A stretch of DNA of 48,636 nucleotides, from positions 1 through 48,636 of the IMG/VR virus record IMGVR_UViG_3300042922_000418, one strand, 5' to 3'. The position numbers were made by a program, and so were the translations under genes. Below, one piece after another: positions 9,409-45,600 of this stretch. This DNA comes from a virus. Each line of letters begins with the position of its first letter. Within the stretch, counting starts at the first letter, position 1. The notes under the pieces were generated by a model. That model worked only from the letters and a program-made list of their open reading frames with translations. It did no database searches and was not told the DNA's origin.

Positions 9409-9771
9409 ATGCCTATGACTATAACGCTACCGCAAAACAGAATCTTAAGCGGTAGAGACGCTGGAAAAGAAGCGCGCAAACAGCTAAATCTAGACGAATT
9501 AGACTACATACAATCACAGATCTGCATACTAATATCGCTAGAAACATGGTCTATAAACTCTTCATTTTTCATAGGATGCTTCTTAGACTCTGTAAAGAAT
9601 CTGGGAGGGGGAATATTATTCGAAGAAAAATATAAATTTCTTTATGAAGATATACATCTTTTATGCATGATCAATGATGGTATCCGCAAATGTGATATGT
9701 TAGTAAAACAGGAGGTTGTGAATAATGTTCCAGTTGCAACAAACAAACTATCCAGATATTTTCATCTATAA
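9409..9771 (+). CDS. STAS-like (DUF4325-type) protein
   Basis: The protein has 120 residues. The layout RILSGRDAGKEARKQL, then a hydrophobic strand (ICILI), then SINSSFFIGCFLDSV fits STAS-like DUF4325 proteins, in which a GRxxGxxxR segment is followed by a strand and a Ser-Phe helix start. The function of this family in phages is unclear, though STAS folds commonly mediate protein-protein regulation. The ribosome site GGGGG is 7 bases from the ATG. The gene's 3' end overlaps the next gene by 47 bases, implying translational coupling. The family call rests on pattern only; a structural search would settle it. Confidence 0.45.
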   Translation: MPMTITLPQNRILSGRDAGKEARKQLNLDELDYIQSQICILISLETWSINSSFFIGCFLDSVKNLGGGILFEEKYKFLYEDIHLLCMINDGIRKCDMLVKQEVVNNVPVATNKLSRYFHL

Positions 9772-10414
9772 TGATTTAAATCCAACACTAACTTCCCCAA
9801 ATTCACCATTTGAAGTTCCGTTTGCTCAAACTAGAGAGACTTTAATGGATGTGGAAATTTACAAACAATTTCTAGAAAATGCAATTCAAAGATTTAGACG
9901 AGGAAAAACATATAAACACTATAAGCACCATCTTATGGGTATGGGTCTAAATCGATGCCAATATCATTCTAATATTCGGTCGAGTGAAGAAGAAGAAATG
10001 GCAACCATAGAAATGCACCATCACGTTCTAACTATATTTGATATAGCTCTAATTATTACAGAAAGTATATTAAATACATATGGAGCTATAACTACATTCG
10101 ATCTGGTAGAAATACTCAAAATAGAACATACTAGATATAACGTATGCACAGTTATGCTTTGCAAAACATGTCACCAGTTACACCACAATGATGCCAGTTT
10201 TATTATTCCAACAAGATTAGGATTTGGAGACTGGGCTGGATTTTTGACTAAATATAGAAATGGCGTAACTAGAGATGTAGCATATAAAGTATTATATTTT
10301 GTTAAAAAAGAATTAGAGTCGCACGAAATTAACGAACAAAATACACTCCAACTATTAAGTATTAGAGATAATATTTTAAATTGGAGTGAATATAATGAGC
10401 AATTTATATCTTAA
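9725..10414 (+). CDS. HNH-like endonuclease family protein
   Basis: The protein has 229 residues. Residues 97-107 read MHHHVLTIFDI and residues 146-155 read CKTCHQLHHN. This His-His-x-x-x-x-x-FDI pairing with a later H-x-L-x-H-N is typical of HNH-like proteins of large phages. Cys146, Cys149, His150 and His154 could bind a metal together with Cys78 (LNRCQYH). The N-terminal 90 residues are unassigned. AGGAGG precedes the ATG at 9725. A second, more diverged member lies at 19598-20329. A homing endonuclease role is possible, but the gene sits in an ordinary operon and carries no sign of an intron, so a replication or repair nuclease role is equally open. Confidence 0.6.
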   Translation: MFQLQQTNYPDIFIYNDLNPTLTSPNSPFEVPFAQTRETLMDVEIYKQFLENAIQRFRRGKTYKHYKHHLMGMGLNRCQYHSNIRSSEEEEMATIEMHHHVLTIFDIALIITESILNTYGAITTFDLVEILKIEHTRYNVCTVMLCKTCHQLHHNDASFIIPTRLGFGDWAGFLTKYRNGVTRDVAYKVLYFVKKELESHEINEQNTLQLLSIRDNILNWSEYNEQFIS

Positions 10415-19577: not shown

Positions 19578-19597
19578 AGCAAGATATTATAGTATTA

Positions 19598-20329
19598 TTA
19601 TTTTGTAGAATCCAATGTATTTTTTAATTCCTCTACTCTTTCTTTCATACTAGACATTACATCCTCATGTTTGGGCAATTTGTATGCTCCTGATGGGTCT
19701 ATATATATCATATTTGTATTTAAGATGGATTCTGCCTGCCTATGGCTATAATTAACACTAGCCATTTCAGCTCTACGTATATTTTCCATTGTTTCTGGAT
19801 CTACAAAGTCTTTATACGTTTCGATAAATGTCTTATACATACCAAATACAGAAGTAGTTGGAACGAATAGATATTTATTATGTACAAGTTCATGGACTGT
19901 TTCTGCTAATGGTATTAAGCCTATATTCATTTTATAATGATTATATATAACTTCTTTAGCTACCATTTCATCAGAAATAGATTCTCTAAAAGCACAGCGC
20001 TTATTGTATACCGCAAGTGTAATATCAAATAAGGTTATTGGCTCGTGGTGAATATGAATTTTTATTTTGAAAGAATCTGCATTTGTAACGTTTTGAAAGA
20101 AACTACATTTATTCATATCTACATAGTCCCTTAAAAAATTTACATATAATTTGTATTCGAATGACCCTCTACATATCTTTTCTACAGAGGATATATATTT
20201 AGGAAATTCTTTAGGATTAGTAAGATCATAATCTGGAATATCAAATTCTGGAACGTTTTCGATTTTTAAAACTTCAGATTTCAATTCATTATAATCTATT
20301 CTAATTATACTATTTGGATCTCTTGCCAT
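19598..20329 (-). CDS. HNH-like protein, second family member
   Basis: The protein has 243 residues. Residues 92-103 (HIHHEPITLFDI), His131 (YNHYKMNIGLIPL) and residues 143-151 (ETVHELVHN) reproduce the conserved HHxPxTLxDI ... H ... VGLVPL ... HELVHN pattern of HNH-like proteins in large phages. It is clearly related to the 9725-10414 protein but lacks the latter's Cys pair, so metal binding would rely on His. The N-terminal 80 residues are helical and unassigned. It is a single-gene unit with a TACA-N6-TA motif upstream. Nuclease activity is likely but untested, and a non-nuclease role cannot be excluded. Confidence 0.6.
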   Translation of the reverse strand: MARDPNSIIRIDYNELKSEVLKIENVPEFDIPDYDLTNPKEFPKYISSVEKICRGSFEYKLYVNFLRDYVDMNKCSFFQNVTNADSFKIKIHIHHEPITLFDITLAVYNKRCAFRESISDEMVAKEVIYNHYKMNIGLIPLAETVHELVHNKYLFVPTTSVFGMYKTFIETYKDFVDPETMENIRRAEMASVNYSHRQAESILNTNMIYIDPSGAYKLPKHEDVMSSMKERVEELKNTLDSTK

Positions 20330-22935: not shown

Positions 22936-23599
22936 GATTAATCCCCCTAAGAATATCATTAAATATATCTTCCTTAGGACGAATATTTCCATCCCTGGTA
23001 GTGTATATCTCCAAAACTCTATCTTTCACATAACTACTCAAATCTATATCACTAAATACTTCAGCTACTGCTGATAAATACTTAGCATTAGATTCATGCT
23101 GATCGTCTTTGGAATTTTTATTACGAACAAAATTAAGCATAATACTAGTCTCTGGTTTTAATTTAATAATTATATCAGCCTTTGGCAATTTTAATATCCT
23201 TGCCAATTCTTCAGTATCTGCTGTTATTACCTTTTCTACAATATGACTATCTCCGTTCATTCTGCAAGCACCAATACGATAAAATAAATTACAATGCCAA
23301 TATCTATCAAGAATAATAGTATAGCCTTCACTTAATTTTGGAATGATTTCAGTCTGAGCACAATCAAACATATCCATCATATAAAACATAGATATTGCTT
23401 TAAGATTTATGTCTTCAATTTTTCCATAAGCTCCAGATAGGTATCTTTTTACAAATATAGATTGAGACATATCGTATCTAGGAAAAGAATACAGAGCCGC
23501 TTTCTCTCCTTTATTTAATAAATATTTAAGATAGGCGTTTGAATTGGTTTCTTTAAAACTACAATCTACACCATCAAATGTTATAATTCTCCCACTCAT
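22928..23599 (-). CDS. tmk: Thymidylate kinase (dTMP kinase)
   Basis: The protein has 223 residues. The P-loop reads FDGVDCSFKET (residues 8-18): the GxDxxxK[ST] frame of thymidylate kinases in a variant where the usual Gly before Lys is Phe. The LDRYWHCN segment (~97-104) matches the DRY motif that contacts dTMP. The GEKAALYSFPRYD region fits the substrate-side helix and loop (FPRY). It should phosphorylate dTMP to dTDP, directly following ThyX's product in the same operon. GTGAGGTG precedes the ATG. It heads the leftward nucleotide operon and is divergent from the 23708 gene. Confidence 0.85.
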   Translation of the reverse strand: MSGRIITFDGVDCSFKETNSNAYLKYLLNKGEKAALYSFPRYDMSQSIFVKRYLSGAYGKIEDINLKAISMFYMMDMFDCAQTEIIPKLSEGYTIILDRYWHCNLFYRIGACRMNGDSHIVEKVITADTEELARILKLPKADIIIKLKPETSIMLNFVRNKNSKDDQHESNAKYLSAVAEVFSDIDLSSYVKDRVLEIYTTRDGNIRPKEDIFNDILRGINHD

Positions 23600-23707
23600 T
23601 TTTTAATAGACACCTCACTTTCAATTACTATATAGTCTCGTATCTGATATATTTATATAAACGCAATTACAATATAATAAGCTATATTATAAGAGGGGGA
23701 AGTATAA

Positions 23708-24223
23708 ATGGAAAATAAAGACAAAGAGTATGAAGAGTATGTATTTGAACATACTGAAAATGTTCTAAAAGCATATCTTGAATTTGGGAAAGATATATTA
23801 AGAATAATGAACAATGAGGGTTTAGATGAAAAATTATTTGAGCTAGTAAATAATCACGACAAATCAAAATTATCAAAAGAAGAATTCGAAGGATATAGGA
23901 AAAAGTTCTTCCCGACCAAAGACGAAGATAAAGAGTTAGCAGATACATACATGGATGCCGCTTGGTTGCACCATATGAATACAAATAAACACCATCCGGA
24001 ATATTGGATAGTCCGAGAAAAGCAGGGATTTAGACCTATAGATATGGGTAGGGAGTACATTGCCGAAATGATACTAGATTGGATAGCTATGGGATATAAA
24101 TTTAAAGCAAATGCTCTTCAATGGTTTAAACAGAATGAAGAGTACTATAAAGGTATTATGTCTAAAGCTACATTCTATACAACAAAAAAAGTTGTATATC
24201 AATTATTTGAGGGGGATAAATAA
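23708..24223 (+). CDS. DUF5662 family protein
   Basis: The protein has 171 residues. The metal-binding-like pattern NNHDKSKLSKEEFEGYRKKF (His50, Asp51) followed by AAWLHHMNTNKHHPEYW (His88, His89, His95, His96) is characteristic of DUF5662, common in phages and bacteria. The arrangement recalls an HD-like metal-dependent hydrolase, but no activity is established here. GAGGGGGAAG lies before the ATG at 23708. It is the first gene of the rightward cluster, with a weak TACA-N6-TA match at 23668-23679 and a TATATTATAAG sequence close to the start. Confidence 0.75.
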   Translation: MENKDKEYEEYVFEHTENVLKAYLEFGKDILRIMNNEGLDEKLFELVNNHDKSKLSKEEFEGYRKKFFPTKDEDKELADTYMDAAWLHHMNTNKHHPEYWIVREKQGFRPIDMGREYIAEMILDWIAMGYKFKANALQWFKQNEEYYKGIMSKATFYTTKKVVYQLFEGDK

Positions 24224-24224
24224 A

Positions 24225-24929
24225 ATGGTATTTATATTTTTAACACCACAGCCTAATGACTTTTCTACCATGGTTGGAGATTTCGTATGTAAAGATCTTA
24301 TCTCCACACTTAAAAGCATAAACAATGGAGAAACAGTAGCTACATATCAAACTTGTTTAGAGAGTCTTAGAATTGCAACATCTTTAGCAAATGGAAGCAT
24401 TCAAGTAATTTTATCAAATGGCGAAATGAAAGAAGTTGCAGAAGCTGATACATTAGAATCTATTTTAGAATTAGAAAAATTAGCTATAGCCGAAGCGTTT
24501 AATACACCATGTGAGGAACTCAAAGCAAAAACAGATGTGAATGAAATTAAAATAAATGCTATGGATTTTTACCAAGCTGCATATTATGATGAAAATAAAG
24601 ATAAAATCGAAAATCAATTGATTGAAAATATAAAACAGGAAAAAGGTAAAAATGCAACAACTGTTAGTAATGAACTTGATGTTATAAACAAGATTATAGA
24701 AGCTTATAATATTAAAGGGCATATAGTTGAAATAAATTGCAACGATAATATAATTGATAGTCATCCAACGTTCTTTCAATATTTAAAAAGAATCATTATG
24801 CCAGAATTTGTTGTGCCTCAAGGATCTGTGGATTTTGCAGATACTAAAGAATTAAATTATGTTTTTACATTTGATTCTGGTGCAAAGATTTGTAGAAAAG
24901 GATTGGAATTTTCTGTAGTAGAAAATTAA
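24225..24929 (+). CDS. Hypothetical protein, 234 aa
   Basis: No family is recognised. The start at 24225 (MVFIFLTPQPNDFS) is preferred because the previous gene's end supplies GAGGGGG; an earlier in-frame ATG would overlap that gene by over 100 bases. The protein is alpha/beta, with an acidic middle (~85-155) and a C-terminal beta-rich part (VDFADTKELNYVFTFDSGAK). It ends just before the stem-loop array. It probably shares a transcript with the DUF5662 gene and with the first part of the array. Confidence 0.6.
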   Translation: MVFIFLTPQPNDFSTMVGDFVCKDLISTLKSINNGETVATYQTCLESLRIATSLANGSIQVILSNGEMKEVAEADTLESILELEKLAIAEAFNTPCEELKAKTDVNEIKINAMDFYQAAYYDENKDKIENQLIENIKQEKGKNATTVSNELDVINKIIEAYNIKGHIVEINCNDNIIDSHPTFFQYLKRIIMPEFVVPQGSVDFADTKELNYVFTFDSGAKICRKGLEFSVVEN

Positions 24930-24940
24930 ATATAATAGAC

Positions 24941-25274
24941 ATATTAGTAAACTAGCTATGCAAGCAGTTAGTCTCTCTTACTATTAGTTGCCCTTACTAA
25001 TATTGACCTGGTGAATTCGCACGCACCAGGTCAAGCCTCATCTCATTTTTATATACTACAGTAATCCTATCAAGATTACTGTAGTACTTTTTATTTCAAA
25101 TTTATTGACAGATGGGCAGTATTGAGCCCATTGTCACTATCGTCATAAAGACGATATATATTTTTGAGATGCACCAGGCATCTCAGATACTGATATAGAT
25201 GTGGGCTACAATATATCAGTACATATTTATACGAATATACCACTATAGGTACTTTTACCTATAGTGGTATATTC
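24941..25274 (+). ncRNA. Array of eight stem-loops, probable structured non-coding RNA region
   Basis: No CDS fits here. Consecutive stems, with few unpaired bases between most of them: (1) 24941-25003, outer 10 bp ATATTAGTAA/TTACTAATAT; (2) 25003-25034, TTGACCTGGTG 11 bp; (3) 25054-25086, TACTACAGTAATC 13 bp followed by CTTTTTATTT; (4) 25106-25136, 11 bp with one bulged G; (5) 25138-25156, TATCGTC 7 bp; (6) 25165-25185, TGAGATGC 8 bp; (7) 25188-25221, TACTGATATA 10 bp; (8) 25233-25274, GAATATACCACTATAGGT 18 bp. The GC content of the stems exceeds that of their surroundings. Strand is assumed from flanking genes and the T-run after stem 3. It may be one RNA, or two separated by the stem 3 terminator. 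No known RNA family was recognised by eye. Confidence 0.6.
25054..25093 (+). terminator. Terminator within the stem-loop array
   Basis: A perfect 13-bp stem TACTACAGTAATC with a 7-base loop is followed by CTTTTTATTT. It would end transcripts from the 23708-24929 operon plus stem-loops 1 and 2. Confidence 0.75.
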
Positions 25275-25478
25275 TGTCTCAGAAATAGATAAAAATCTAA
25301 TAATTTATTAAATCAATAACAATAATGTAGGAGGGGGATGGAAAAATAAAAGAAAGAAGGGAAGAATATATGAATATCTTTCCAGAAGCATAAAATTAAA
25401 TATGTAACTCTTAATAAATATAGTTATATATTATAAATATGAGAATAGATAAAATAAAAATAAAGGAGTTGTATTGAA
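25275..25478 (+). other. A-rich leader between the stem-loop array and the small-gene cluster
   Basis: This 204-base stretch is very A-rich. It contains two minimal reading frames with good ribosome sites: ATG-GAA-AAA-TAA at 25338 behind GTAGGAGGGGG, and a seven-codon frame (MNIFPEA) at 25370 behind GAAGGGAAG. They may be leader peptides or chance. The TATATATTATA promoter motif at 25425 lies after both, so they would be read from further upstream. Confidence 0.35.
25425..25435 (+). promoter_or_regulatory. Putative early-type promoter TATATATTATA
   Basis: TATATATTATAAATATGAG lies 44 bases before the ATG at 25479 and matches the minus-strand site at 18756 closely, including the ATGAG. Confidence 0.5.
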
Positions 25479-25670
25479 ATGATTTTATTAGAAGCAATGC
25501 TTTACGACATCAGAGAGGTATTATCAGTAGCATGGGCTAGTATATTTGTAGGTGTTAGATTCTTATTAAATAATTGGACAATGGAGGATACGGTATCGAT
25601 ATCCAAATGTTCAGCTTATTTAGCTCTTGGTTACGTATCTTTAGTATTAATTTTCATAATTGGAGAATAG
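25479..25670 (+). CDS. Small membrane protein, 63 aa
   Basis: Two predicted membrane helices are seen: about residues 14-30 (VLSVAWASIFVGVRFLL) and 43-61 (AYLALGYVSLVLIFIIG). A short acidic loop separates them (NNWTMEDTVSISKCS). AAAGGAG precedes the ATG. It is the first gene after an early-type promoter motif and is followed by a hairpin. Small two-helix proteins in early phage operons are often host-membrane modulators, but no specific role can be given. Confidence 0.7.
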   Translation: MILLEAMLYDIREVLSVAWASIFVGVRFLLNNWTMEDTVSISKCSAYLALGYVSLVLIFIIGE

Positions 25671-25673
25671 ATA

Positions 25674-25700
25674 TGAAGGATAGCATTATGCTATCCTTCA
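25674..25700 (+). terminator. Hairpin terminator
   Basis: An 11-bp perfect stem TGAAGGATAGC with a 5-base loop lies right after the stop of the small membrane gene and is followed by ATACTTTGTTT. Confidence 0.65.
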
Positions 25701-25734
25701 ATACTTTGTTTAAATAATAAGGAGTATATAAACA

Positions 25735-26043
25735 ATGGAGAAACAAATGAATATTGGAATGGATTATGATGGAGATCATAAATTCTATACCGTATTTCTT
25801 CCAGAGAGAAAAGATTATTACAATATCATATCCAATAAACCAAAAAGAAGAAAAAGATTAATAGATCATTTATTAAAAGAACGAAAGAATAGATCTATAC
25901 TAAATAAAATAACAGATAGACAAATGATACGACGGTTAGCAAAAATGAAAAAATATAAAAAGAAAGGAATAAATGCTTTACATGGAATGGTTCAGAGATC
26001 ACTAAAATTTAGATCAAATTATAAAAGGAGAAAATTAAAATGA
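25735..26043 (+). CDS. Small very basic protein with a DYDGD motif, 102 aa
   Basis: The N-terminus reads MNIGMDYDGDHKFYTVFLP, which resembles the catalytic NADFDGDQMxVHxPL loop of RNAP beta'. The rest is extremely basic (KRRKRLIDHLLKERKNRS, KMKKYKKKG, NYKRRKLK), suggesting nucleic-acid or RNAP contact. AAGGAG precedes the ATG. Its stop overlaps the next gene's start (ATGA), and that next gene carries a stronger version of the same motif. There is no other recognisable domain. The resemblance may be fortuitous because the motif is short. Confidence 0.6.
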   Translation: MEKQMNIGMDYDGDHKFYTVFLPERKDYYNIISNKPKRRKRLIDHLLKERKNRSILNKITDRQMIRRLAKMKKYKKKGINALHGMVQRSLKFRSNYKRRKLK

Positions 26044-26663
26044 TAAGCTATAGATATATATCAGGCGGTGGATTAATCTACAGACAAGGCAAAGAACAAA
26101 TATTAGAGGAAGAGTTAAGAGATCCTATAATTTTAGATATTGTGACAAAATCATGCGAATTAGCTGTTATCAATATCGATAGTGCTCTAGAAGCCATAGA
26201 AAAATATTATAATACCCTAATGAAAGATAAAATGGACAATATGTCAAAGGAAGAACTAGATGAAGTATGTCGCAAACCTACAATAATAACATCAGATGGA
26301 ACATTGATAAAAGATGTAAGAAAATTTCTTTACAGTAGGCTAAGAGAAACAATGTGTTCAAAAACACTAAAAATGTTTGAAAGCGAAGAAGATTGCGTTC
26401 GTATAAACAATAGACTTATTCCGTTAAGTAGTTATGCAAAACCTCCTTTAGTTAAAAATAAAAAATCAAGGAAAAGACTATTAGAAAGATTAAATTTAAA
26501 ATACAGAAGAATACATAGACCTCTGCCAATGTTACATGGAGATTTTGATGGCGATCAATTAAATATAATGGCACATACAAATCTTCCAGCCTTTGTGACA
26601 TATGCAGAATATTTCGCAAGAAGAAACGAAACTCTAGATTTCGATGGGGATGTAAAATTATAA
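26040..26663 (+). CDS. Protein with an RNAP beta'-like DFDGD catalytic-loop motif, 207 aa
   Basis: Near the C-terminus, RPLPMLHGDFDGDQLNIMAH (about residues 165-184) closely matches the HPLVCxAxNADFDGDQMxVH segment of beta', whose three Asp bind the catalytic magnesium. LPA follows where beta' has PLS. A second DFDGD occurs four residues before the end (LDFDGDVKL). The first 150 residues show no clear beta' similarity and are helical and charged. It is too short to be a polymerase subunit. Possible readings are a beta' fragment working with the split subunits, a degenerate duplication, or a mimic that interferes with an RNAP. AAAAGGAG precedes the ATG. Confidence 0.65.
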   Translation: MISYRYISGGGLIYRQGKEQILEEELRDPIILDIVTKSCELAVINIDSALEAIEKYYNTLMKDKMDNMSKEELDEVCRKPTIITSDGTLIKDVRKFLYSRLRETMCSKTLKMFESEEDCVRINNRLIPLSSYAKPPLVKNKKSRKRLLERLNLKYRRIHRPLPMLHGDFDGDQLNIMAHTNLPAFVTYAEYFARRNETLDFDGDVKL

Positions 26664-26686
26664 ATTTTATAAAAGGAGATATAATA

Positions 26687-26908
26687 GTGTTTAATAAAGA
26701 AAAATTATGGCATTTAGTTAAATTGTATATTTTCTTAAATCTTATAATGGTTGGATGCTTAGCCGTATGTAGACCGTTATATGAAAACAATATGGAGCTC
26801 TTTTGGTTTCTGTCTAAGTACTTACTTATATCTGGCAATATAACAATTTTGATAGGTTATAGTATGAAGACTATAGAAGAATATAAACTTAATAAAAGGA
26901 GATCATAG
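26687..26908 (+). CDS. Small membrane protein, 73 aa
   Basis: Two predicted membrane helices are seen: about residues 10-28 (LVKLYIFLNLIMVGCLAVC) and 40-58 (FWFLSKYLLISGNITILIG). The C-terminus is basic (KLNKRRS). The gene starts at GTG at 26687 behind AAAAGGAG; no ATG fits the ribosome site. Its TAG overlaps the GTG of the next gene by one base. No family is recognised. Confidence 0.65.
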   Translation: MFNKEKLWHLVKLYIFLNLIMVGCLAVCRPLYENNMELFWFLSKYLLISGNITILIGYSMKTIEEYKLNKRRS

Positions 26909-27225
26909 TGGAAAAAATTGCAATTCTTACAAGCGACAGGTATTTTGTAAAACTAGTAGAAGAGGAAGAAGTTCCAGTAAAAGCTGAAGAGTTGGTAGAG
27001 GGCGATATATTTTCACTCTATTCGGATTCTAGTAAACAAACTAAGTGCCATTGGGGTGAAACAACTATATTTAAATGTGAAGGACCTGTATTTAATAATG
27101 AAGAAGATGTTCAATATATTCAATGCTCACTTAGTCTAACAAATAAATCTTCAAAACTACTTCAAATAAATGGTAGAAAAGTATACCCTCCAACTCCAGT
27201 AAAATTTGGAGATTTTTATTTATAA
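26908..27225 (+). CDS. Hypothetical protein, 105 aa
   Basis: No family is recognised. The gene starts at GTG at 26908 with AAAAGGAG upstream. The pattern is beta-rich (KIAILTSDRYFVKLVEEEEVPV, TIFKCEGPVF, YIQCSLSL), with an acidic N-terminal third and a PPTPVKFGDFYL tail. The EELVEGDIFSL segment resembles the strand-turn found in small SH3- or Hint-like barrels, but this is weak. It is the last gene of the rightward small-gene cluster and is followed by a bidirectional terminator. Confidence 0.6.
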   Translation: MEKIAILTSDRYFVKLVEEEEVPVKAEELVEGDIFSLYSDSSKQTKCHWGETTIFKCEGPVFNNEEDVQYIQCSLSLTNKSSKLLQINGRKVYPPTPVKFGDFYL

Positions 27226-27230
27226 AAATT

Positions 27231-27263
27231 ATAAAAGGTATAGCATAGCGCTATACCTTTTAT
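27231..27263. terminator. Bidirectional terminator between convergent genes
   Basis: A 14-bp stem ATAAAAGGTATAGC with a 5-base loop is followed by TTTTTT on the plus strand. It lies between the small-gene cluster and the stop codon of the RNAP beta gene. Confidence 0.85.
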
Positions 27264-27266
27264 TTT

Positions 27267-30200
27267 TTACATTTTATCTAAAGTTTTCCACGGAATGCCT
27301 AGCATATCTTTACATTTTCTATCAAGTTCTATAAGAACTTTATTTAATGCTCCATTCAAAATAATAGATCCAACCATACGAGCAGTAATAGAAGATGTAG
27401 TTAATAGTGCATTTACATGTTCATCCTTGCGGAAATCAGTATATGGTTCATCTCCAGCGGATATGATATCTTTACCCACACCCTTAATGGCAGAATTGTA
27501 TACCAACTTATCTCCTATACCAAATTTATCTTCACATTTAATATAGAATTCTATAAGAACACCATCTACACCTTTAAGTTTTCCAGTTGGAGGTAATTTA
27601 TAATCAGGTTCTAGAATATGATCCATACCTTTGATTTTATTATCTTTAAATATTTTTTTAGTCTTTTGTATTTCCTTTTCATATGAAATTACTAATTTTT
27701 TTAAAGATGGGGAAAGCTCGTCAAGTTCACATGTTCTATAAATTTTAACGTCTTGAACCCATCCAGTTAGTTTAGAACGTACATGAATACGACCTAAATC
27801 TGATACTGCTTCTAGGTCATCATCTGTTATTGATTTGAGTAAAGCATTTGCATCTTTTTCTTCGAATGCATTTTGAAATATAATTAATGGATCTCCTTCT
27901 TCTATGGGATCTCCTTTTTTAACTACATTATATACATTCGTCTCTTTAGATAATGCTCTGTCTTTTTGCACACAATAAGTAGAAGTAAGAGCATCTGATA
28001 AATAGGTATCTATAATGGCACTATCTTCATACGCCTCATCTGTTGGGATGATCCCTACTTTGGCTTGTGTTCCGATATTATAAGAAATATTCTTCTCAGT
28101 TTTATCAGTACCAATGGCTTTAGAGTATGATGTTTTATCATATGCTAAGATATCGTTATACTTCAGTGTATCACCCTTCTTAACACATGTATCTAGCTTT
28201 ACAGTTACATAAAATCCACCATCAGAGTTCTTCATAACCGTTTCTCTTAAATCTACATATCCTCTATCTGGACCATTTTCACTTATTGTATTTCCAGTAG
28301 TTTCATAAATAATATATTCATCTGTGACTTCTATAACTTTACCTTTATCTCCTTTAAATTTATGAGAGAATGTATTTGAAGTCATATATGGTAAAGCTTC
28401 ATCCATACCCATAGTTACAAGATTTGGAGATGATTTTTTTACACGCATTTGATGCTTAGAAGTTTGAATGAATCCCATAGCAGTTCTAATAGGATCATCA
28501 TGTGTAGATCCAAAAGGGGTCAAAGCTTCTGTTACACATAAAGTATTTAATGTATTTAAATCTTTATCTTTAGGAGTAACAATCAAACCTCTATTTCCCT
28601 TTATATTGCTATTTATAGTAGCTTGGCGAGTAATACCAACATTTGCGGCAAACCCAGTTGAAGATGCTAGCACTCCCAGCATAGAATTATCATAAGTTCT
28701 TTTATCTAAACTATAACTCCTATCAGAGTTCATTCCAGATAAACCTTTAAAAGACATAGAGTTTCTAGCTTCCGCTTCTAATACAGGATTCAATACGGAT
28801 AAATCGGTTGAAGTTTGATCTGCTAATATAGCATCAATAACAGCAGATTGTTTTATTGTAAGAGCTGCATCTTTTTTATTTCTTTTTAATTGATTCTTGT
28901 ATTCTCCATAACTTTTAGCTATAACCTTATAAACATATCCAGGTATAATTTCAGTTGTTCTCATTCTATTACCAGATATATCTACGTGTTTATTATATTT
29001 AGTATCTACTAATAAATCACTTGCATAGCCTAAAGCTTCTACATAGTCTGTTGGTAGATTATATAATTCACATACTTCTTTAGTCGTAGAATCAAACATG
29101 AGATCATAAAAGTTATCCAAACCATCGGCTTTTATTCTACCGCCAAAATCATCCAAGAAATCTAGCCACATTTCTTTTTTATTAATATCTTTAATAGAAT
29201 AATTAGCTGTATCGCATTGAGCAAGCCCACTCATAAGAAGAGAGCTACTTGGATTATTTTGATATACAATATAGCCATCAGAGAATTTAATATACGATTC
29301 ATGGGATTGAGGTCGCTTATCTGTAAAGTGAAAATTTACATTTCCTTTTTTCATAGCTGTTTGCAATCCTTCATTATATGCCATAACTACTATAACTGGA
29401 ATATCTGTATTTAGGATGCTGGCGGTAGAATAACTCAATCTTTTATCTGGTTTAATACTTTTTACTATATCATCAAATTCTGGATCTACTGCGGATAATG
29501 TAAACAGTATCGTATCTGCAACGTTTTCTCCACAGCTTATTACTTTACCATCTTTCTTATTATACTTATACGGAATTCTATTAGCATCTTCTTTAGGATA
29601 AAGCAATGGAAATTTTTTCATATCATCCATATTGAAACTAATATAGTCACCATTCGGTAATTCTATTCTACTATACAATCCAGCCAAATCTCTATATTCT
29701 ATTGGGAGTTCATACTTCCCACATATAAAACTATTATCCCCTTCGAATATTTTAATTTTATCACCTTTATATTTTGATAATGCTTTAACTAGAGTACTAA
29801 CACTTCTTGTAGTTTTAGATCCACCACTAGGATTTACACGTCTAATAAAGATTTTATTATATGAGCATGATACAATTTGTGCAGTATCTTCATCTGTTTT
29901 AATTATAGGAATCAACACCAATTGCCCACTCATTACTTTTTCATTACCCCTAAGCTTCATGGATCTATCATCTATAAGCTTAGGAATATCTAGTTTTATA
30001 GAAAATCTTTTACCATTCGCATCTTCAAACTTTACAGTCCAAGTTTCTACATAATCTTCAGATGTTGACGTGTCTTCTGTATTTACTTCTAAAACTGCAA
30101 TTGGGTCTGATTTAGTACCCATATCGGTAAGTATAGCATAAATGTCAGAATGCATATTATAGTTTTTACTAAACGTTGTAAACTTAACATTTTTCCATTC

Positions 30201-36657: not shown

Positions 36658-39600
36658 ATGAATCCTGTTGCCGATTATATAAAGAATCTTGGGAAATCTG
36701 TTGGATATGCCGCGATACAGCATATTAATGAGAAATCTCCAGCTATGGCAAGCTTTGCAGAGTCTAATCAAGAGCTATACAAAGAAGTGTTCCATTCTGT
36801 TAGAGATTATAGAACAACAATACAGAGATCTAAAGATCTAATACAGAAAAGCACAGTATATCGACTTGGAGATTCTGCATTTAATAATGCTCTAGAAGAT
36901 ATCAAATCTGGTAAGTTATATAATAAAGAAAGAGAAGATTCTTCTTTTGGTGATTTTGGCGATATGGATATGTCGTCATTTGATGAAGGATTCGATTCTG
37001 CATCAGATATACCAACAGATATAACAACCGGAGATCAAATGGTTGTTAAAGCTGTTGGTTCTGCATCGCAAAAAAATGCATTTGCAGTAACAAATGCTGT
37101 TGCCTCGTCAGCTCAATATGTTGCAGATACTAATAAAAGTATTGCAAATATGCATTATACTCAAATGACAAGAGTTATGAGTAGTATGCAATCTGGCTTT
37201 AATGGAATATCTAATGGTATAGACGCATTATATAATTTTAATACTCAAGTAGTAGGGGCACATGCTGAGAATTCTAAGAAATTCTTTGAAAATACTACTG
37301 GTCTTTTACAAGAACAGAATGCTATTCTTAAAGAAATGCTTCAAATGCAGCGTGAGAAATATAAAGTAGCATTGCAAGAAGATAAAGAGAGAAAGGCAAA
37401 TAGATTCGATGATGTAGTAAATGTTTCAGGAACTCCAGATCTTAAAGCATATGCTAAGGCTATTGGCGGAAACTTTAAAAATGCAATTAACGAGCAGTCT
37501 GGTGGTATGCTAAGCATGCTATCAGAAGAAAATTTAAAAATGTTTGCCAATAATCCATTAGCTGCTATACCACAAATGTTAATAGCAACTGCTATGGGAC
37601 CTAAATTAAATACTGCATTGCAAAAGTTTGATGCCACCCTATCTGGCGCTTTTGCTACAATGACAGCTAAGTTTAATAAAATGGCATCTGATGATAATGC
37701 TAATCCTTTAGAACAATTTCTTGGAAAAGTATTTGGTCTAAAAAATAATGTCAAAAATACTATTGATACTTCTAAATACGAACAAGGACCAATACAATTT
37801 AATGGTCTAGCTCAGAAAAGTATAGTCGAAGTTATGCCTGGACATTTAAGAAGAATTGAAGCTTTATTATCTGGACAAAATGAAAGGTTCTTTGATTATA
37901 AAAGTGGTAAGTGGACTAATGCTAAAGCTGTAAAAGATCAATTTAATAGTATAAAAAAGAATAATGTAACCTCGTCAATGTCAGACGTTTCTGATGAAAT
38001 GGCTGAAATGATGAAAGCATTATCGTTTAAGTCTAGACAAGATAAAGAGTCAATGATTAAAGACATGGGAGCTATGTTTGAAAAAATATATGATGACTAT
38101 GGTTTCTTTGATCCTAATAATAAAGATGAATTTAGCCATGTAAAATATGGAGTATCTAGCAAATCTAATATGAAATTACTACAATCCATGTTTAAGAACC
38201 TTAGACGTGGGACTGCAATGAAAATGGCAAATCAAGTGCAGTCGCAAAGAGAAACTCATAATCGTCAAATGGAAAATATAGAAAAGGAAGGAAACTCCTT
38301 ATTCGGAAATCTATTTAATGGATATGATGCAGATTCTCATATTAAAACTACGGAAAGGGGTGAAATCAAAGAGAGATATGGTAATCTCGGAGATCAGTCC
38401 AATCTTCTTAAAATACAAGATCCATTTAAGAAAAATATATTTGACTACCTAAGAGGTATTCAACAAGAACTATTTTCTATTAGAAAACTTGGATCTATGG
38501 GACCAGGTCCTTCTAGAGGCAGTCGCGGTAGACGTAATTCTCAAGACACTACAGACTTCTCTCAATTATCTGATGAAGACTGGAAAAAATATTTTGAAAA
38601 TAGATTAGGTCCTAGGGAAAAATCTAATAAACAGCTAAACAGAGAACGAGAGTCTAGAGCAGATGATGCATACCGAGTTTCTGAAGATGCTAGAGTCAGA
38701 AGACTCACATCTCAGGGTAGAATAATAGCTGGTGCGGATAAGTGGATGGACGATACGTCTAGAGCTACTGGGGCTATATATGCAAATAGTGTTAATAGAG
38801 ATGTGCAAGATAATAGAAGAGCCATGTCTGATAATTCTACTTGGATCAATGATATGATGACTAGAAGTGCTAAAAATTCTAAAGCTAGACTAGAATCAAC
38901 TGCTGGTAAAGAAAATGCAGATGGTGTTAGTTTCTTAGATCAGCTTATCCAAGCAGGATCTTTAGGTGCTAAGTATGATGTAATTAGAAGTGGTATAGAT
39001 AAATTAACAGCTAAACCTACTGATATACTTACAGGTGTATTAACTAAAGCTGATGAAAATATTTATAATTTCTTCTATGGGCAAGAAACCGACGTCAAAG
39101 ATGAGAGAGGAAACAAGATCAAAGGTTTCTTTAATCGAATGACTTGGGAAATGAAAGGTACTTTTGGTAAAGTAAATAGTTGGATAGACGATACTCTTCT
39201 AAAACCATTCAAAGACAAATTTGCTGGCAAATCTATGTGGGGTGCCAGTAAAAATGCTCTAAAGGGAATGGGGATAGATATTGATGGTATCGGTAAAGGT
39301 ATTAAAGATTATTTTGTTGGCGATGAAGGTTTGCTTCGACCTACTATAGATGCTGTAAAAAGCGCATATAATGAAGCATACGAAGAAGTCAAACGAGATA
39401 TGAGAAAATCATATAAAGATGCAAATCAATTCTATAATAATACCGTTCTAGGTCAACAAACTACAGAACAGAAATTGACTAGTGCTAAGAAGATTACTGG
39501 TGTAGATGCAATAGATGAAACTATTGCGTTTAAAAATGCAGCAGCTGCTAACAAATCTGTTCAAAATTCAAATGCACAACATGCTAAAAATATAAAAGAA

Positions 39601-42600
39601 AGAAATGCAATTATACAAGAACTAAATAAAACTACAGATCCTCAAAAAATAGCAGAGCTTCAAGATAAACTTAAAGCTATAGATGCTAATAGAGCTATAA
39701 GTGGAAAACGTAAAGCTATGTACGATCGTAGGGTTAGTAATTTTGAAGCTAGACAAAAAGAAATAGAACAAACTAATTTAGCTATAAGAAATTATAATAC
39801 TGACGATTCTGATATTCTATCTCAAAGAGAATCTAAATTAAATGAACTTAATAAAATGAAAGGAACTTTAAATCTACCATCAAACTCTGTATTAGGTAAA
39901 ATAGATTTAAATTCTCCTGAATATGCTCATTTAAATGATAAAAATATTTCTAAGAGTTTTGATAAAGCTAAATCACTGGAAGCCGAAATAGATTCTCTAA
40001 AGACAGAACTGGAAAAGCTTAATGAAAAGAGAACTTCTTTACAAAACTCCCAAAAAGAAGCATGGGGTCAATTTGGCACAACTAGAGAAAAAGCTATGGC
40101 TGATCCGGAGCTTATTATGGCTCAAGCTAAGGCTAATAGAAAATCATTTAAAGGTAATGATCTTCAAAGAAAATCTTTTGATGATGCCTTAGGCTCTCTT
40201 GCTACTATTTTAGGATTAGCATCTTTAGACCCTGAAGCTAAAGTGGCATATAAAAAGGTAGATGAATTAGAACAAAAGTATCTTACTGCTGTTAAAGGTT
40301 TAGGAAGTGGAGATCCTATAAAATCTATTCGTGTTCAGATAAACCAAAATGCTACTGCTGGAAAAGATACATCTAAACTTACTAAGAAAATGAATGATAT
40401 ACTCGCTGCCAAAGGATCTTTATTTGGTAGATATGCCGATACATTTTCTAATGTTCTAGGGAAAATGAGAGTACCCCAAGATCAAATAAGTTCTACTGTA
40501 GATAAACTTCTAAACAGTAATTCTATGGAAGAGCTTGCTCAAATTAATAAAAGCATTAATAAATTCATAGCTGCTGTAAAACAAGTAAATCCTATAATTG
40601 CTCCATTTTTACAGTCATATGAAAAAGATAGTGTTTTAGAGAACTATGCCGAACAGGGAAAATTTGAATCGTTTTCATCGGATATCGCATCTGCTGATCA
40701 TTTTGGTTTAGAAGATTTATGGAGAGACCAAACTCAGTTTAAGAATCCAGAAAAACGTTCAAATTATGCTATGCCAGAACATGGAGATATTCATCATTAT
40801 GCGAATGGTGCAAGAAATATTACCAAAAGTGGTCTTAGTATAGTATCTGAAGGTGAAGCTATCATCCCATCTGATATGAATCCATTTAATCCTAATATAG
40901 ATAAAGCGGATAGACGTAAAGATGAGAAGAACGAAAAGAGTATTAAACAGCGTATCGGTAAGATTTTTAATGCAAATGATATTGCTGAAAATGCTAATGG
41001 TACTCCATCTTTTGGTAATGATGGTGCAATAACAAAAGGATTTAATAATTTTAAATCTGGCGTTGGCGAATTCACTAATCAATTATTTAATACTAAAGAG
41101 GCTAGTGCCAAAATAGGAAAAGTGAATGATGAAGTGAGAAAACATTTACCAAAAGGCATTGCCGGTGGATTACTTGGAGGTACCGTAGGCTTACTTACTG
41201 GTATTGGTGGACCATTATTAGGTGCTATAGCTGGGTCTGCATTATCTGTCGTTACTAATAGCGAAATCCTTCAAAAGAGTTTGTTTGGAGAAAAGGTATA
41301 CGATTCAAATGGCGATGATACTGGTAAAAGAAACGGCGGATTGTTTTCTTCAGAACTACAAGAATCTATGAAAAAGTACTTACCAGATGCAAAAACATAT
41401 GGTATAACTGGAACGGTTCTTGGTATGTTAACTCCATTGGGTCCTATCGGTGGTCTTATGATGGGATCTGCTATCAGTTTTGCTAAGAATAATGAGAGTG
41501 TTAAAAGCGCATTATTCGGAGAAAAAGACGGATTGTTTAATGGAGATACACAAAAAGCAGTTCAAAAGGCATTTCCTAATGTAGCAGCCGCTGTAGTAGG
41601 ATCTATGTTCTTAGGACCATTTGGTCTATTGGGTAACGCTGCAATTGGAACTGGCTTGGGTCTAGTATCTACAACAGATGAATTTAAAGACTTTATGCTT
41701 GGTAAAGCAGATTCAAAGGGACAGCGTAAAGGTGGTCTTTCTGGAGCTATTAAAGAGGTAATGATAGACCCTCTGGCAAGTTTTTCTTCGACTGTTAAAA
41801 ATAAATTCTTTGATTTCATGAAGAAAGATATGATAGATCCTATTAAACGTTCAATAGCACCTATAGGTAAACAAATAAGTCTTGCTATAAAAGATACGTT
41901 TGGTCTTATAGGTAAAACTTTTACTAGTATAGTAAAATCTAGTTTAGGTATACCTTTTATAAACCAAGTAAAAGAATCATTAAAATATTGGATGGACCCT
42001 CTTGGTATAAATAAATTCGTATTCAAAAGCGGAGCTAAGCTTGCAGGTAAAGTAATTTCTGCTCCATCTAAAGCTATTGGTTGGGTTGGCGATAAGCTTA
42101 GACAACACCAAATAGAAAAATCTAATGCCGATTACATGACAGCAAATGAACGTCTAGAGTTTATGGCTAGTAAAGGCAAAGATTACAAACTAAAAGAATA
42201 TGATAGTATGCTTTCTAATACAAAGAAAGAAGAGCTAGAAAAAGCACATGACCTTATGGGAGAGCTTAAAAAAGGAAAAGGTTTCTTAGATGAGCGTCAT
42301 GATGAATACGTTAAAGATTTAGGATCTACGGTTAGTAACAAATTCGATGTAGCTACATCTAAAGCTATTCTTAAAGCCGCCCACAGCGGAGATATGGAAA
42401 AAGCACACCAGCTAATTCAAGACTCTGATTTGAGTACTGCCGAAAAAGAAAAACTATTTAAACAAGTAAACGTAAAGGCTAATAAAGTTAGAGAAATCAA
42501 ATATAGAAAAGATAATTATACTGGAAATGAAAATGAAGTATATGAAAAACTACAAAAAGAGTACGGTATAAAGGGTATCAATTCTAAGAATCTAGACAAG

Positions 42601-45600
42601 TATAGATCTGTTTTACAGACAGAGATACAGTCAAGATCTACTAAGGATGAAGAAAAAGATTCAGATCAATTTTCTTCTATCAATTCTTCCTTAGATGCTA
42701 ATACGGATAAACTAGTTGGGTTCATGAAAGCTCAAGTAGAAATCCTAGCTCAAATTAGAGATAATGCAATGGGTGTAAGCCCAGAGCAAAATCGTGATTT
42801 GAAAAGAACTAATAAACTTGGAGAAAATGTTGCTGGGAAATACATTAAATCTAATAATAGAAATGCAGATAAATTAAATAGAAAAGTATCAAAATTATAT
42901 GGTGGGCAAGAAATATCTAATAGGTATAATCTAGCTGATAATCAATATAAATTTGAAGCTATTGATAAACTTGCCAAGAACAAATATAAGTTTAGCGACT
43001 TAGATAAAGTTCTAGAATACGATGGGGATACATTTAGTAGATTTATTGCTCTTGGTCAAACTGGCTATAATGTTAAAGATTATGATAAAATAGCCAAGAT
43101 GTCAGATGAAGCATTTGGCAATGTATTAACATTTGCTCAAACTGGTATGAAGATAACCGATATCGATAAAGTAATGAATGCAAATCCAGAAGTTATTAAA
43201 GGTATGGTAGAACTGCATGAAGGTGGATTTAAGAATGTAAGCCAAGAAACTTTATCCAAGATGGTATCTAGAAAATCTCAATATCTTGGTCATGGTAAAA
43301 AAGCTGCTCTTAAAGCTATGAAATCTTCTTCTAATGAAGATGATTCTAAAAATGCCGATACTGTGGAAAAGATAAATAAAAATGTATACGAGCCTCCCGA
43401 TAATAGTGCATTTGCTCAATTTAAAGATGGAGTTAGAGATAGAGTATCTTCTGTAGCTCAACAAGCTAGAGAATATGCTAACGATGCAAAAATTGGAGCT
43501 ATGATAGCCGGAGCATATAACCAAATTAAAAAGGAATTCGAACCAGAGAACGAGTTTAAAAATCTAGTTCAGGTTGAAACTGATTATGGTGTAGCATCGT
43601 ATACTAGATCTACCGATGGATCTATGGATATGGCTAATACAAAGAACAATAAGTCTATATCTGATAAAATATCGCAAAGAGATGAAACTCAAAAAGGTAT
43701 TTTAGAAAATCTAAAATCTATGGCTGGAAATGCTAAAGGTAAAGTTAAAGAAAAAGCAGGAGCTGTAAAAGATTCAGCTAAAGGTGGACTGCTTGGAGCA
43801 TTAGGTGGACTCTTAGATTTAGCAAAATTGCCTTTAAATCTATTTAAAGGTCTTGGAAGCATGCTAGGATTACCATTGCAGTTACTTGGTCTTGGGGGAG
43901 TAGCTGGTAAAGCGGCAGGTTGGGCAGGTGGAAAATTATCAAATGTAGGTAAAACTGCTCTTGATTTTGCTGGAGGAAAACTTGGCGGAATGGCTTCCAA
44001 TATTAAAGATAAATTACTTGGAACTAAAATAGGTCAAAAAGTTACAGGCAAATTAGATGCTTTAAATACTAAATTTGGAGCTAGCAAAATTGGTAAAATG
44101 TTTAGTAAAGGTAAGTCTTTACTTGGCGGAGCGGGGCTGTCAACAGGAACAGCTGGAGCATCTGCCGTTGATGAAGAAGGAAATGCTATAGAAGAGCCAT
44201 CTGACGTATTGGGAGCTATAAACGTTCATAGAACTACTATGGTAGACTATTTAAAACAGATAGTAGAATTGTTACAAAATGGCGGTTCTGGAGAATCTTC
44301 TGGAAATCCAATACAAGATATAGCCCAAGATATTAATGAAAGCCGTAGCGATAAACCTGCTGGGTCTTCTAAAGTTAAAGGCTCTAAGAATCGCTGGTTG
44401 AGTAAAATTGGAAATGGTATAAAAAAATATGGTGGAAAGGCTGCTTTATTAACTGGAGCGGTATACGGTCTATCTCAGCTTATGCCATCTGGAGCAGAAG
44501 CTTCGCCATCAAATGGTTTTTCATCAGATGATTACGATGGACAGAACACTCCAACTACTGGTAGAGAATCCGGCTCGTTCGATACTGCCGGTGCTGCACT
44601 TTCTGCTGTTACTCTAGCATCTAATTTAGATTCTGATATGGTTCAAAAGGCTCAAGTATTTTTAGCTAAAGCTAAAGATGGTCTTAAAGGATTAGTTGCT
44701 AAACTTGGAAATTGGATTCCTAATAAAGGAGTATACGCTGGGATTCAAGAGTTTTGTGCCAAGTTGATGGAAAAGATGTCTACTCCTAGAAATCTTACTA
44801 AAATAGTAGAAAAGCTAGGTGCTAAATTAGCATTAGGTCCTGCATATGCAGCTATAGGAGCAGCTACTGCTGGTGCTGGAGCTGTAGTTCTAGGTGCAGT
44901 TGAATCTATGGGTTGGTTTTTACATGGTTGGAGCAATGCAGGTGAGATGCTTGGTGTAAAATCTGGGGCTACAAATGGCATGAAATTTGTTTCTGGTTTG
45001 GTAGATGCTGTTGTTAGTATGATTCCAGTTCTTGGCATCGTAATACCTTCAGATGAAGTATTAAACATGGCATTAGATTTTGTTGGACCTCCATTTGGAT
45101 TTACACGTTCAGATGTAGAGAAACTTAAAAAAGCTAATGATCAGGCAAATAAACAGACAAGCTCAGCTATTGATGAGGCTCAAAACCCTACTAGTAATAA
45201 TTCCTTCATTCAAAATGCTTGGGATGCTACTAAGAAATTTGGTGGCGATGTTTGGCAAGCAACTAAAAATGGAGCAAATTATGCTATAGAAAAGGCATCC
45301 GATGCTATCGACTCTGTTAAAGAAAAGGGAAATTCCGCTGTAGATTGGGTGCAAAATAATGCTAAATATGTAGCAGAAAAAGCCGGAAACATGTGGCAGT
45401 CTGCTAAAGATACAGTGTCTAATTGGTGGAACGGTAGAGGCAAAAGTGGTAATAAATTTGGTAGAGGTAATGGCACTTTAGCAGCAGGATTTAAATCACA
45501 ATTAGATCCAGCAAATGCTATGAACTTCAATACTTCTCAAGATAGCGTTCCTCAAACCATGGAAGATAGTGGATGCGGACCAGTGTCTGCCGCTAATATG

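Follow-up and report, generated by a model that had tools for sequence, protein, structure and literature searches.

GOLLD and ROOL, the latter named from the rumen, are phage-encoded, highly structured RNAs of gene-free DNA, and their function is unknown. Phage T4 makes two small stable RNAs, RNA C and RNA D, which belong to its tRNA cluster, are processed from the tRNA transcript and have no known function. In CsrB/RsmY-type sponge RNAs, numerous hairpins stand in tandem within a single noncoding RNA. Knowledge of noncoding RNAs in jumbo phages is very limited. A passage in PMC13282480 mentions that the jumbo phage phiKZ, which has its own RNA polymerases, expresses noncoding RNAs. Neither noncoding RNA nor hairpins turn up in a word search of the study on AR9 transcription (PMC5312081). 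That study defines two promoter classes in AR9, an early one, AAATATATATTAT-(6N)-G, and a late one, AACA-(6N)-TA/G, in which the last base is +1 (PMC5312081), and both classes are also covered in a review (PMC7598289).

Here we describe an array of nine consecutive hairpins in a 48.6-kb virus fragment from IMG/VR (IMGVR_UViG_3300042922_000418; 48,636 nucleotides), the whole of which is called the window. With a probability of about 0.5, the array can be read from its sequence as a lineage-specific gene for a noncoding RNA, with the layout promoter, H1-H3 and terminator H4, in an AR9-like jumbo phage. As judged from sequence, the window comes from a phage of the AR9/PBS1-like jumbo group, whose members carry their own RNA polymerases. 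The closest isolated relatives of its RNA polymerase (RNAP) beta-like protein are the Bacillus phages AR9 and PBS1 and jumbo phages of Listeria and Staphylococcus. The hosts of the window phage are gut bacteria. A set of 22 related IMG/VR records was gathered by means of the RNAP beta-like protein. The array is harboured by a 3.5-kb accessory island at 23.6-27.2 kb with thymidylate-kinase and RNAP genes on either side, and most genes of the island are orphans without counterparts in relatives. The genes around the array are as follows.

23708-24223, + strand: gene for a DUF5662 protein; a late-motif site lies at about 23666
24111-24929, + strand: upstream gene for an orphan protein of at most 272 aa, without relatives
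25479-25670, + strand: downstream gene with an early promoter of its own, encoding a hydrophobic protein of 63 aa
27267-32564, - strand: RNAP beta-like gene, which places the phage near the AR9/PBS1-like jumbo phages

The hairpins, each of which was checked individually, follow one another from 24951 to 25274 in DNA without genes.

24951-24973, + strand: hairpin H1, 7 bp, beginning at +3 of the predicted RNA
24982-25002, + strand: hairpin H2, 7 bp
25003-25034, + strand: hairpin H3, 11 bp, perfect (TTGACCTGGTG-AATTCGCACG-CACCAGGTCAA)
25054-25092, + strand: hairpin H4 with its tail, a predicted intrinsic terminator; the stem-loop (25054-25086) has a perfect 13-bp stem and is followed by CTTTTT
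25106-25136, + strand: hairpin H5, 11 bp with a one-base bulge
25138-25156, + strand: hairpin H6, 7 bp, then TATATTTTTG; a weak second terminator-like site
25164-25186, + strand: hairpin H7, 8 Watson-Crick pairs, with one G-U and one A-U pair possible in addition
25188-25221, + strand: hairpin H8, 10 perfect outer pairs and a large loop
25233-25274, + strand: hairpin H9, 19 bp, perfect, with the 4-base loop CTTT and no U-run

The initial annotation had described eight consecutive stem-loops at 24941-25274, five of them perfect with 10 bp or more. The stem-loops are indeed consecutive and gene-free, but the hairpin-by-hairpin check gives nine of them from 24951 onwards, and four of the nine are perfect with at least 10 bp. 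The last stem (25233-25274), recorded there as 18 bp with a 6-base loop and no U-run, is the same hairpin as H9 and does lack a U-run, but has one more base pair and a loop two bases shorter. The statement that no reading frame spans the region holds. When ATG, GTG and TTG are allowed as starts, the longest frames inside the array encode 50 aa on the - strand and 28 and 21 aa on the + strand, and inspection finds no ribosome-binding site before any frame in the predicted RNA.

The array is real and strongly non-random. The RNA fold of 24930-25300 reaches -132.3 kcal/mol, compared with -71.0 +/- 4.8 in dinucleotide shuffles, and the z-scores against such shuffles are -12.8 for the + strand and -10.8 for the - strand. 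Because single hairpins are common at the gene ends of this phage, other noncoding stretches are a fairer yardstick. The array has the best z-score among the 300 noncoding stretches that were scored in the window and related jumbo-phage DNA (2.41 Mb). A multibranch closure through 10 bp (24941-24950 with 24994-25003) and 5 bp (24937-24941 with 25275-25279) was rejected, as 24938-24949 is better explained as a promoter. Internal word repeats suggested a two-module duplication, but repeats that short are expected by chance.

A late promoter immediately before H1 is probable on sequence grounds. The promoter-like sites at and beyond the array are listed here.

24936-24953, + strand: predicted late promoter of the nvRNAP class, TAGACATATTAGTAAACT, of the form xACA-N6-TA with +1 at A24949
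25218-25235, + strand: weak site resembling the late motif, AGTACATATTTATACG, just ahead of H9, score 4.0 and rank 178, unsupported by score
25424-25441, + strand: early-class promoter of gene 25479, TTATATATTAT-AAATAT-G, with +1 at about G25441

The predicted late promoter starts 7 bases past the stop codon of the upstream gene. With a matrix trained on 50 late sites of a single relative, G019, TAGACATATTAGTAA at 24936 scores 13.1 and ranks second among 97,238 window positions. It ranks 13th with a matrix built from 10 window sites, and it falls just below the stricter cut-off of the orphan-promoter scan. Relative to the AR9 rule, G replaces A at -11, a change that AR9 polymerase is not expected to tolerate; the flanking bases fit the relatives, and the GACA variant is found in about one sixth of the late sites of G019. 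The late-class motif occurs 62 times ahead of G019 genes compared with 18 times in shuffles, and in 10 of 21 upstream regions of the window. The remaining strong late sites between genes (19380, 36617, 36281, 32606, 9363 and 9381) lie 28-56 nt ahead of genes. The 24936 site is the only one of its strength in the window that has no gene start downstream and is followed by H1 instead. The early class of this phage group, TATATATTAT-(6N)-G, is seen at 25424 in the window and at many sites in relatives; further window promoters of the form TATATATTAT-N6-G are located at 19578, 18767 and 17292, all on the - strand. These classes come from targeted scans, EM motif discovery having given mainly ribosome-binding sites and terminators. 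The early and late (xACA-N6-TA) classes can thus be read in an uncultivated AR9-like phage, and could predict the temporal class of most of its genes.

H4 fits an intrinsic terminator. Its 13-bp stem contains G+C, and a U-run follows at once, the tail directly 3' of the stem being CTTTTTATTT. This agrees with the earlier proposal that the stem at 25054-25086 would terminate transcription. There are 8 terminator-like sites in 23500-27300, compared with 1.0 in shuffles. Together, the predicted promoter and the terminator would delimit a short transcript, beyond which a longer one may be formed.

24949-25092, + strand: predicted short noncoding RNA of 144 nt carrying H1-H4, from the predicted +1 to the U-run after H4
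24949-25290, + strand: possible product of read-through, about 340 nt long, with hairpins H1-H9

We infer that the late (non-virion) RNA polymerase of the phage initiates at about A24949 and transcribes H1-H3, and that transcription ends mostly at H4 to release the 144-nt RNA. This RNA has a predicted fold of -44.0 kcal/mol and a z-score of -6.2 against mononucleotide shuffles. Read-through past H4 would add H5-H9 and produce the RNA of about 340 nt, for which a fold of -127.5 kcal/mol is predicted with a mean pair probability of 0.86-0.99 for every hairpin. H5-H9 hold much of the folding energy of the array. Because they sit past terminator H4, the whole array may not be one RNA. In either form, the product would be a chain of separate, very stable hairpins with no frame that looks translated. 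The transcription unit, taken alone, is rather likely to exist.

The array resembles GOLLD and ROOL in being phage-encoded, highly structured, gene-free and without a known function. However, it has at most half their length, and it is a simple chain of local hairpins rather than a pseudoknotted multibranch fold. The initial annotation had recognised neither RNA here. Rfam likewise gives no match in the whole window at gathering scores, and a search of 24900-25480 with E up to 10 gives chance-level matches only and thus no known family. GOLLD and ROOL are often found near tRNA islands (PMC12286853). In several relatives tRNA genes adjoin the RNAP gene, whereas the window itself has no tRNA island, and neither ARAGORN nor Rfam finds a tRNA or tmRNA cloverleaf. 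Relatives with tRNA genes at the RNAP 3' end include G003, G004, G005 and G006 (for example L007:12342-13065); the window has none at that position.

CsrB/RsmY-type RNAs share with the array the many tandem hairpins, and the action proposed below for the predicted RNA, that of a protein decoy, is of their type. Their defining feature, a GGA repeated in hairpin loops as in CsrB/RsmZ, is absent from the + strand of 24949-25290. This absence rules out a CsrB-type sponge, and there is no sequence relation. The noncoding RNAs of phiKZ likewise come from a jumbo phage with RNA polymerases of its own, but phiKZ is a distant relative with other promoter motifs. No relation to RNA C or RNA D of T4 is visible, the likeness being that of a small phage RNA without known function.

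Searches for homologues gave no second copy of the array. A DNA search of 50,697 phage records with the array and its neighbours gave no match, and the exact stem pattern of H3 is absent from IMG/VR. In the 22 related records neither DNA comparison nor covariance models revealed a convincing homologue, so that the homologous regions envisaged in the initial annotation for a covariation analysis were not found; models of both array halves recovered only single terminator hairpins and self-matches. The neighbouring proteins encoded by 24111-24929, 26040-26663 and 25735-26043 have no relatives in IMG/VR when used as bait. DUF5662, tried as bait for array loci, gave two weak matches in unrelated loci and was abandoned. 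Alignment of the RNAP against GTDB genomes yielded one jumbo-phage contig, without a comparable array. Contig L258 (JAFVGA010000001.1; 245,370 b) encodes this jumbo-phage RNAP and is filed as a Eubacterium sp. genome (sheep abomasum MAG), most likely through misbinning of a jumbo phage. No comparable array was found in AR9, where the most structured gaps include stretches in or beside split, intron-bearing genes. None was seen in the other scanned relatives either, whose inspected structured gaps are mainly terminators, small genes, tRNAs and looser folds.

The exception is G019, whose RNAP is 57% identical to that of the window in the conserved part and which is strongly colinear with the window over most of its left part.

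163326-164057 of G019: gene-free array of 732 nt with about 15 near-perfect hairpins

This array is flanked by a homologue of window gene 19598-20329 and by Thy1, at a distance of 2 kb from the RNAP 3' end. It has an early-like site, CATATATAATAATAGTGAT, at its start and a terminator at its end before the next gene. Two of 37 strong late sites in G019 are orphans, and one of these (163621, - strand), the strongest orphan late promoter of that genome, lies inside the array, with five hairpins and then a terminator downstream. Strict orphan late sites number 0-1 each in G001, G004, G020 and G014, and 5 in G007. The window and G019 arrays cannot be aligned, and their top hairpin pair ranks only 18th of 5,096. 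By eye, H3 and one G019 hairpin (CTGGT-GAAT-C) had seemed to be homologues, which the ranked comparison did not bear out. The window and G019 share, as an analogous feature, a type of array in which near-perfect hairpins run through gene-free DNA together with a terminator and an orphan phage promoter. In the gap just past Thy1 of another relative, G006 (L009:17873-18090), there are two long hairpins with the common core ACCATATTATTATATATGGT and different outer stems, a pair that resembles a duplicated hairpin.

A phage noncoding RNA was among the possibilities raised by the initial annotation, and the late motif before H1, the terminator H4, the lack of a protein gene, the lack of an Rfam match and the G019 array all support it. 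The likeliest action of the predicted RNA is that of an abundant late decoy, whose paired arms or loops would occupy an RNA-binding protein or a ribonuclease of the host or the phage. Hairpin architecture that is retained while sequence is not conserved would suit a sponge or decoy whose target protein recognises RNA duplexes or loops. A decoy also tolerates fast sequence change as long as the hairpins remain, which fits the comparison with G019. We infer this action tentatively and consider it rather doubtful. It is still more doubtful that AR9-like jumbo phages in general carry a fast-evolving class of late tandem-hairpin RNAs as decoys against a host RNA-binding protein or an RNA-sensing defence. 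In such a class the number and sequence of the hairpins would vary among relatives, the architecture and neighbourhood would persist, and the phage's own polymerase would make the RNA.

Instead of encoding an RNA, the array could act as a transcription barrier, in which a stack of hairpins and terminators separates the early-class gene, with its promoter at 25424, from the preceding late-class operon, which has a late motif at about 23666. Such a barrier would be needed because phage polymerases may read through single terminators, and the RNA itself would have no role. H4 and, weakly, H6 are terminator-like on the + strand, the genes on either side of the array differ in promoter class, and the G019 array likewise lies between two same-direction genes. 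However, H3, H5, H7, H8 and H9 all lack a U-run, so most of the hairpins are no terminators and the array is not a set of them. Moreover, single hairpins serve the other gene borders in these phages, and a promoter motif inside a barrier would be unexpected. A barrier is fairly unlikely.

Neutral accumulation is less probable again. Perfect palindromes left by template switching or by the decay of former terminators and tRNA-like genes would then persist without present function. The variable accessory island, with its mostly orphan genes absent from relatives, and the unconserved array sequence are compatible with this. Four perfect stems of 10-19 bp would nevertheless be expected to erode without selection, H1-H4 are framed by a promoter motif and a terminator, and an independent analogue is present in G019.

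It is improbable that the array is a leader or attenuator of gene 25479, in which transcription would start at the late site at 24949 and H4 would compete with an alternative pairing to set read-through. The array and the gene are on the same strand, alternative pairings are available (25007-25013 with 25172-25178, or 25039-25045 with 25165-25171, among others), and a 9-codon frame begins at 24958. However, this frame has no ribosome-binding site, the folds do not really compete according to the predicted pair probabilities, and gene 25479, which lies 387 nt past the terminator, is served by a strong early promoter of its own at 25424.

Least probable of all is a DNA-level element, either the packaging or replication site that the initial annotation had also considered or cruciform palindromes bound by a phage protein: both strands of the array fold about equally well and only 5 of 103 pairs are G-U (12% in shuffles), but the terminator and the promoter motif are directional, GC-skew changes track gene direction and mark no switch at the array, no iterated protein-binding word is present, the position of the array is unconserved in relatives, and nothing points to packaging or replication.

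If the noncoding RNA gene is real, these jumbo phages make a hairpin-chain RNA with their own late polymerase, and sequence-based family searches miss it because its sequence changes too fast. The combination of orphan phage promoters with hairpin density, used here to find such loci, could be extended to other jumbo phages.

Several observations were made beside the array. One frame of 3,820 aa occupies 36658-48120 (+) of the window and matches phage families of unknown function weakly. Two paralogues of PHROG 12252, also of unknown function, are encoded at 9725-10414 (+) and 19598-20329 (-); the latter is found in 80+ IMG/VR loci, and its conserved His/Glu residues recall a metalloprotease motif. 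In G001 (IMGVR_UViG_3300028048_000077), a near-perfect hairpin is located at the start site of many early promoters (for example 6224-, 38224+, 54981-, 56786-, 77132- and 79195-), so that it forms the mRNA 5' end and is followed by a ribosome-binding site. Early promoters of G019 have the same 5'-end hairpin (GATAAGA...TCTTATC), and such hairpins possibly protect early transcripts.
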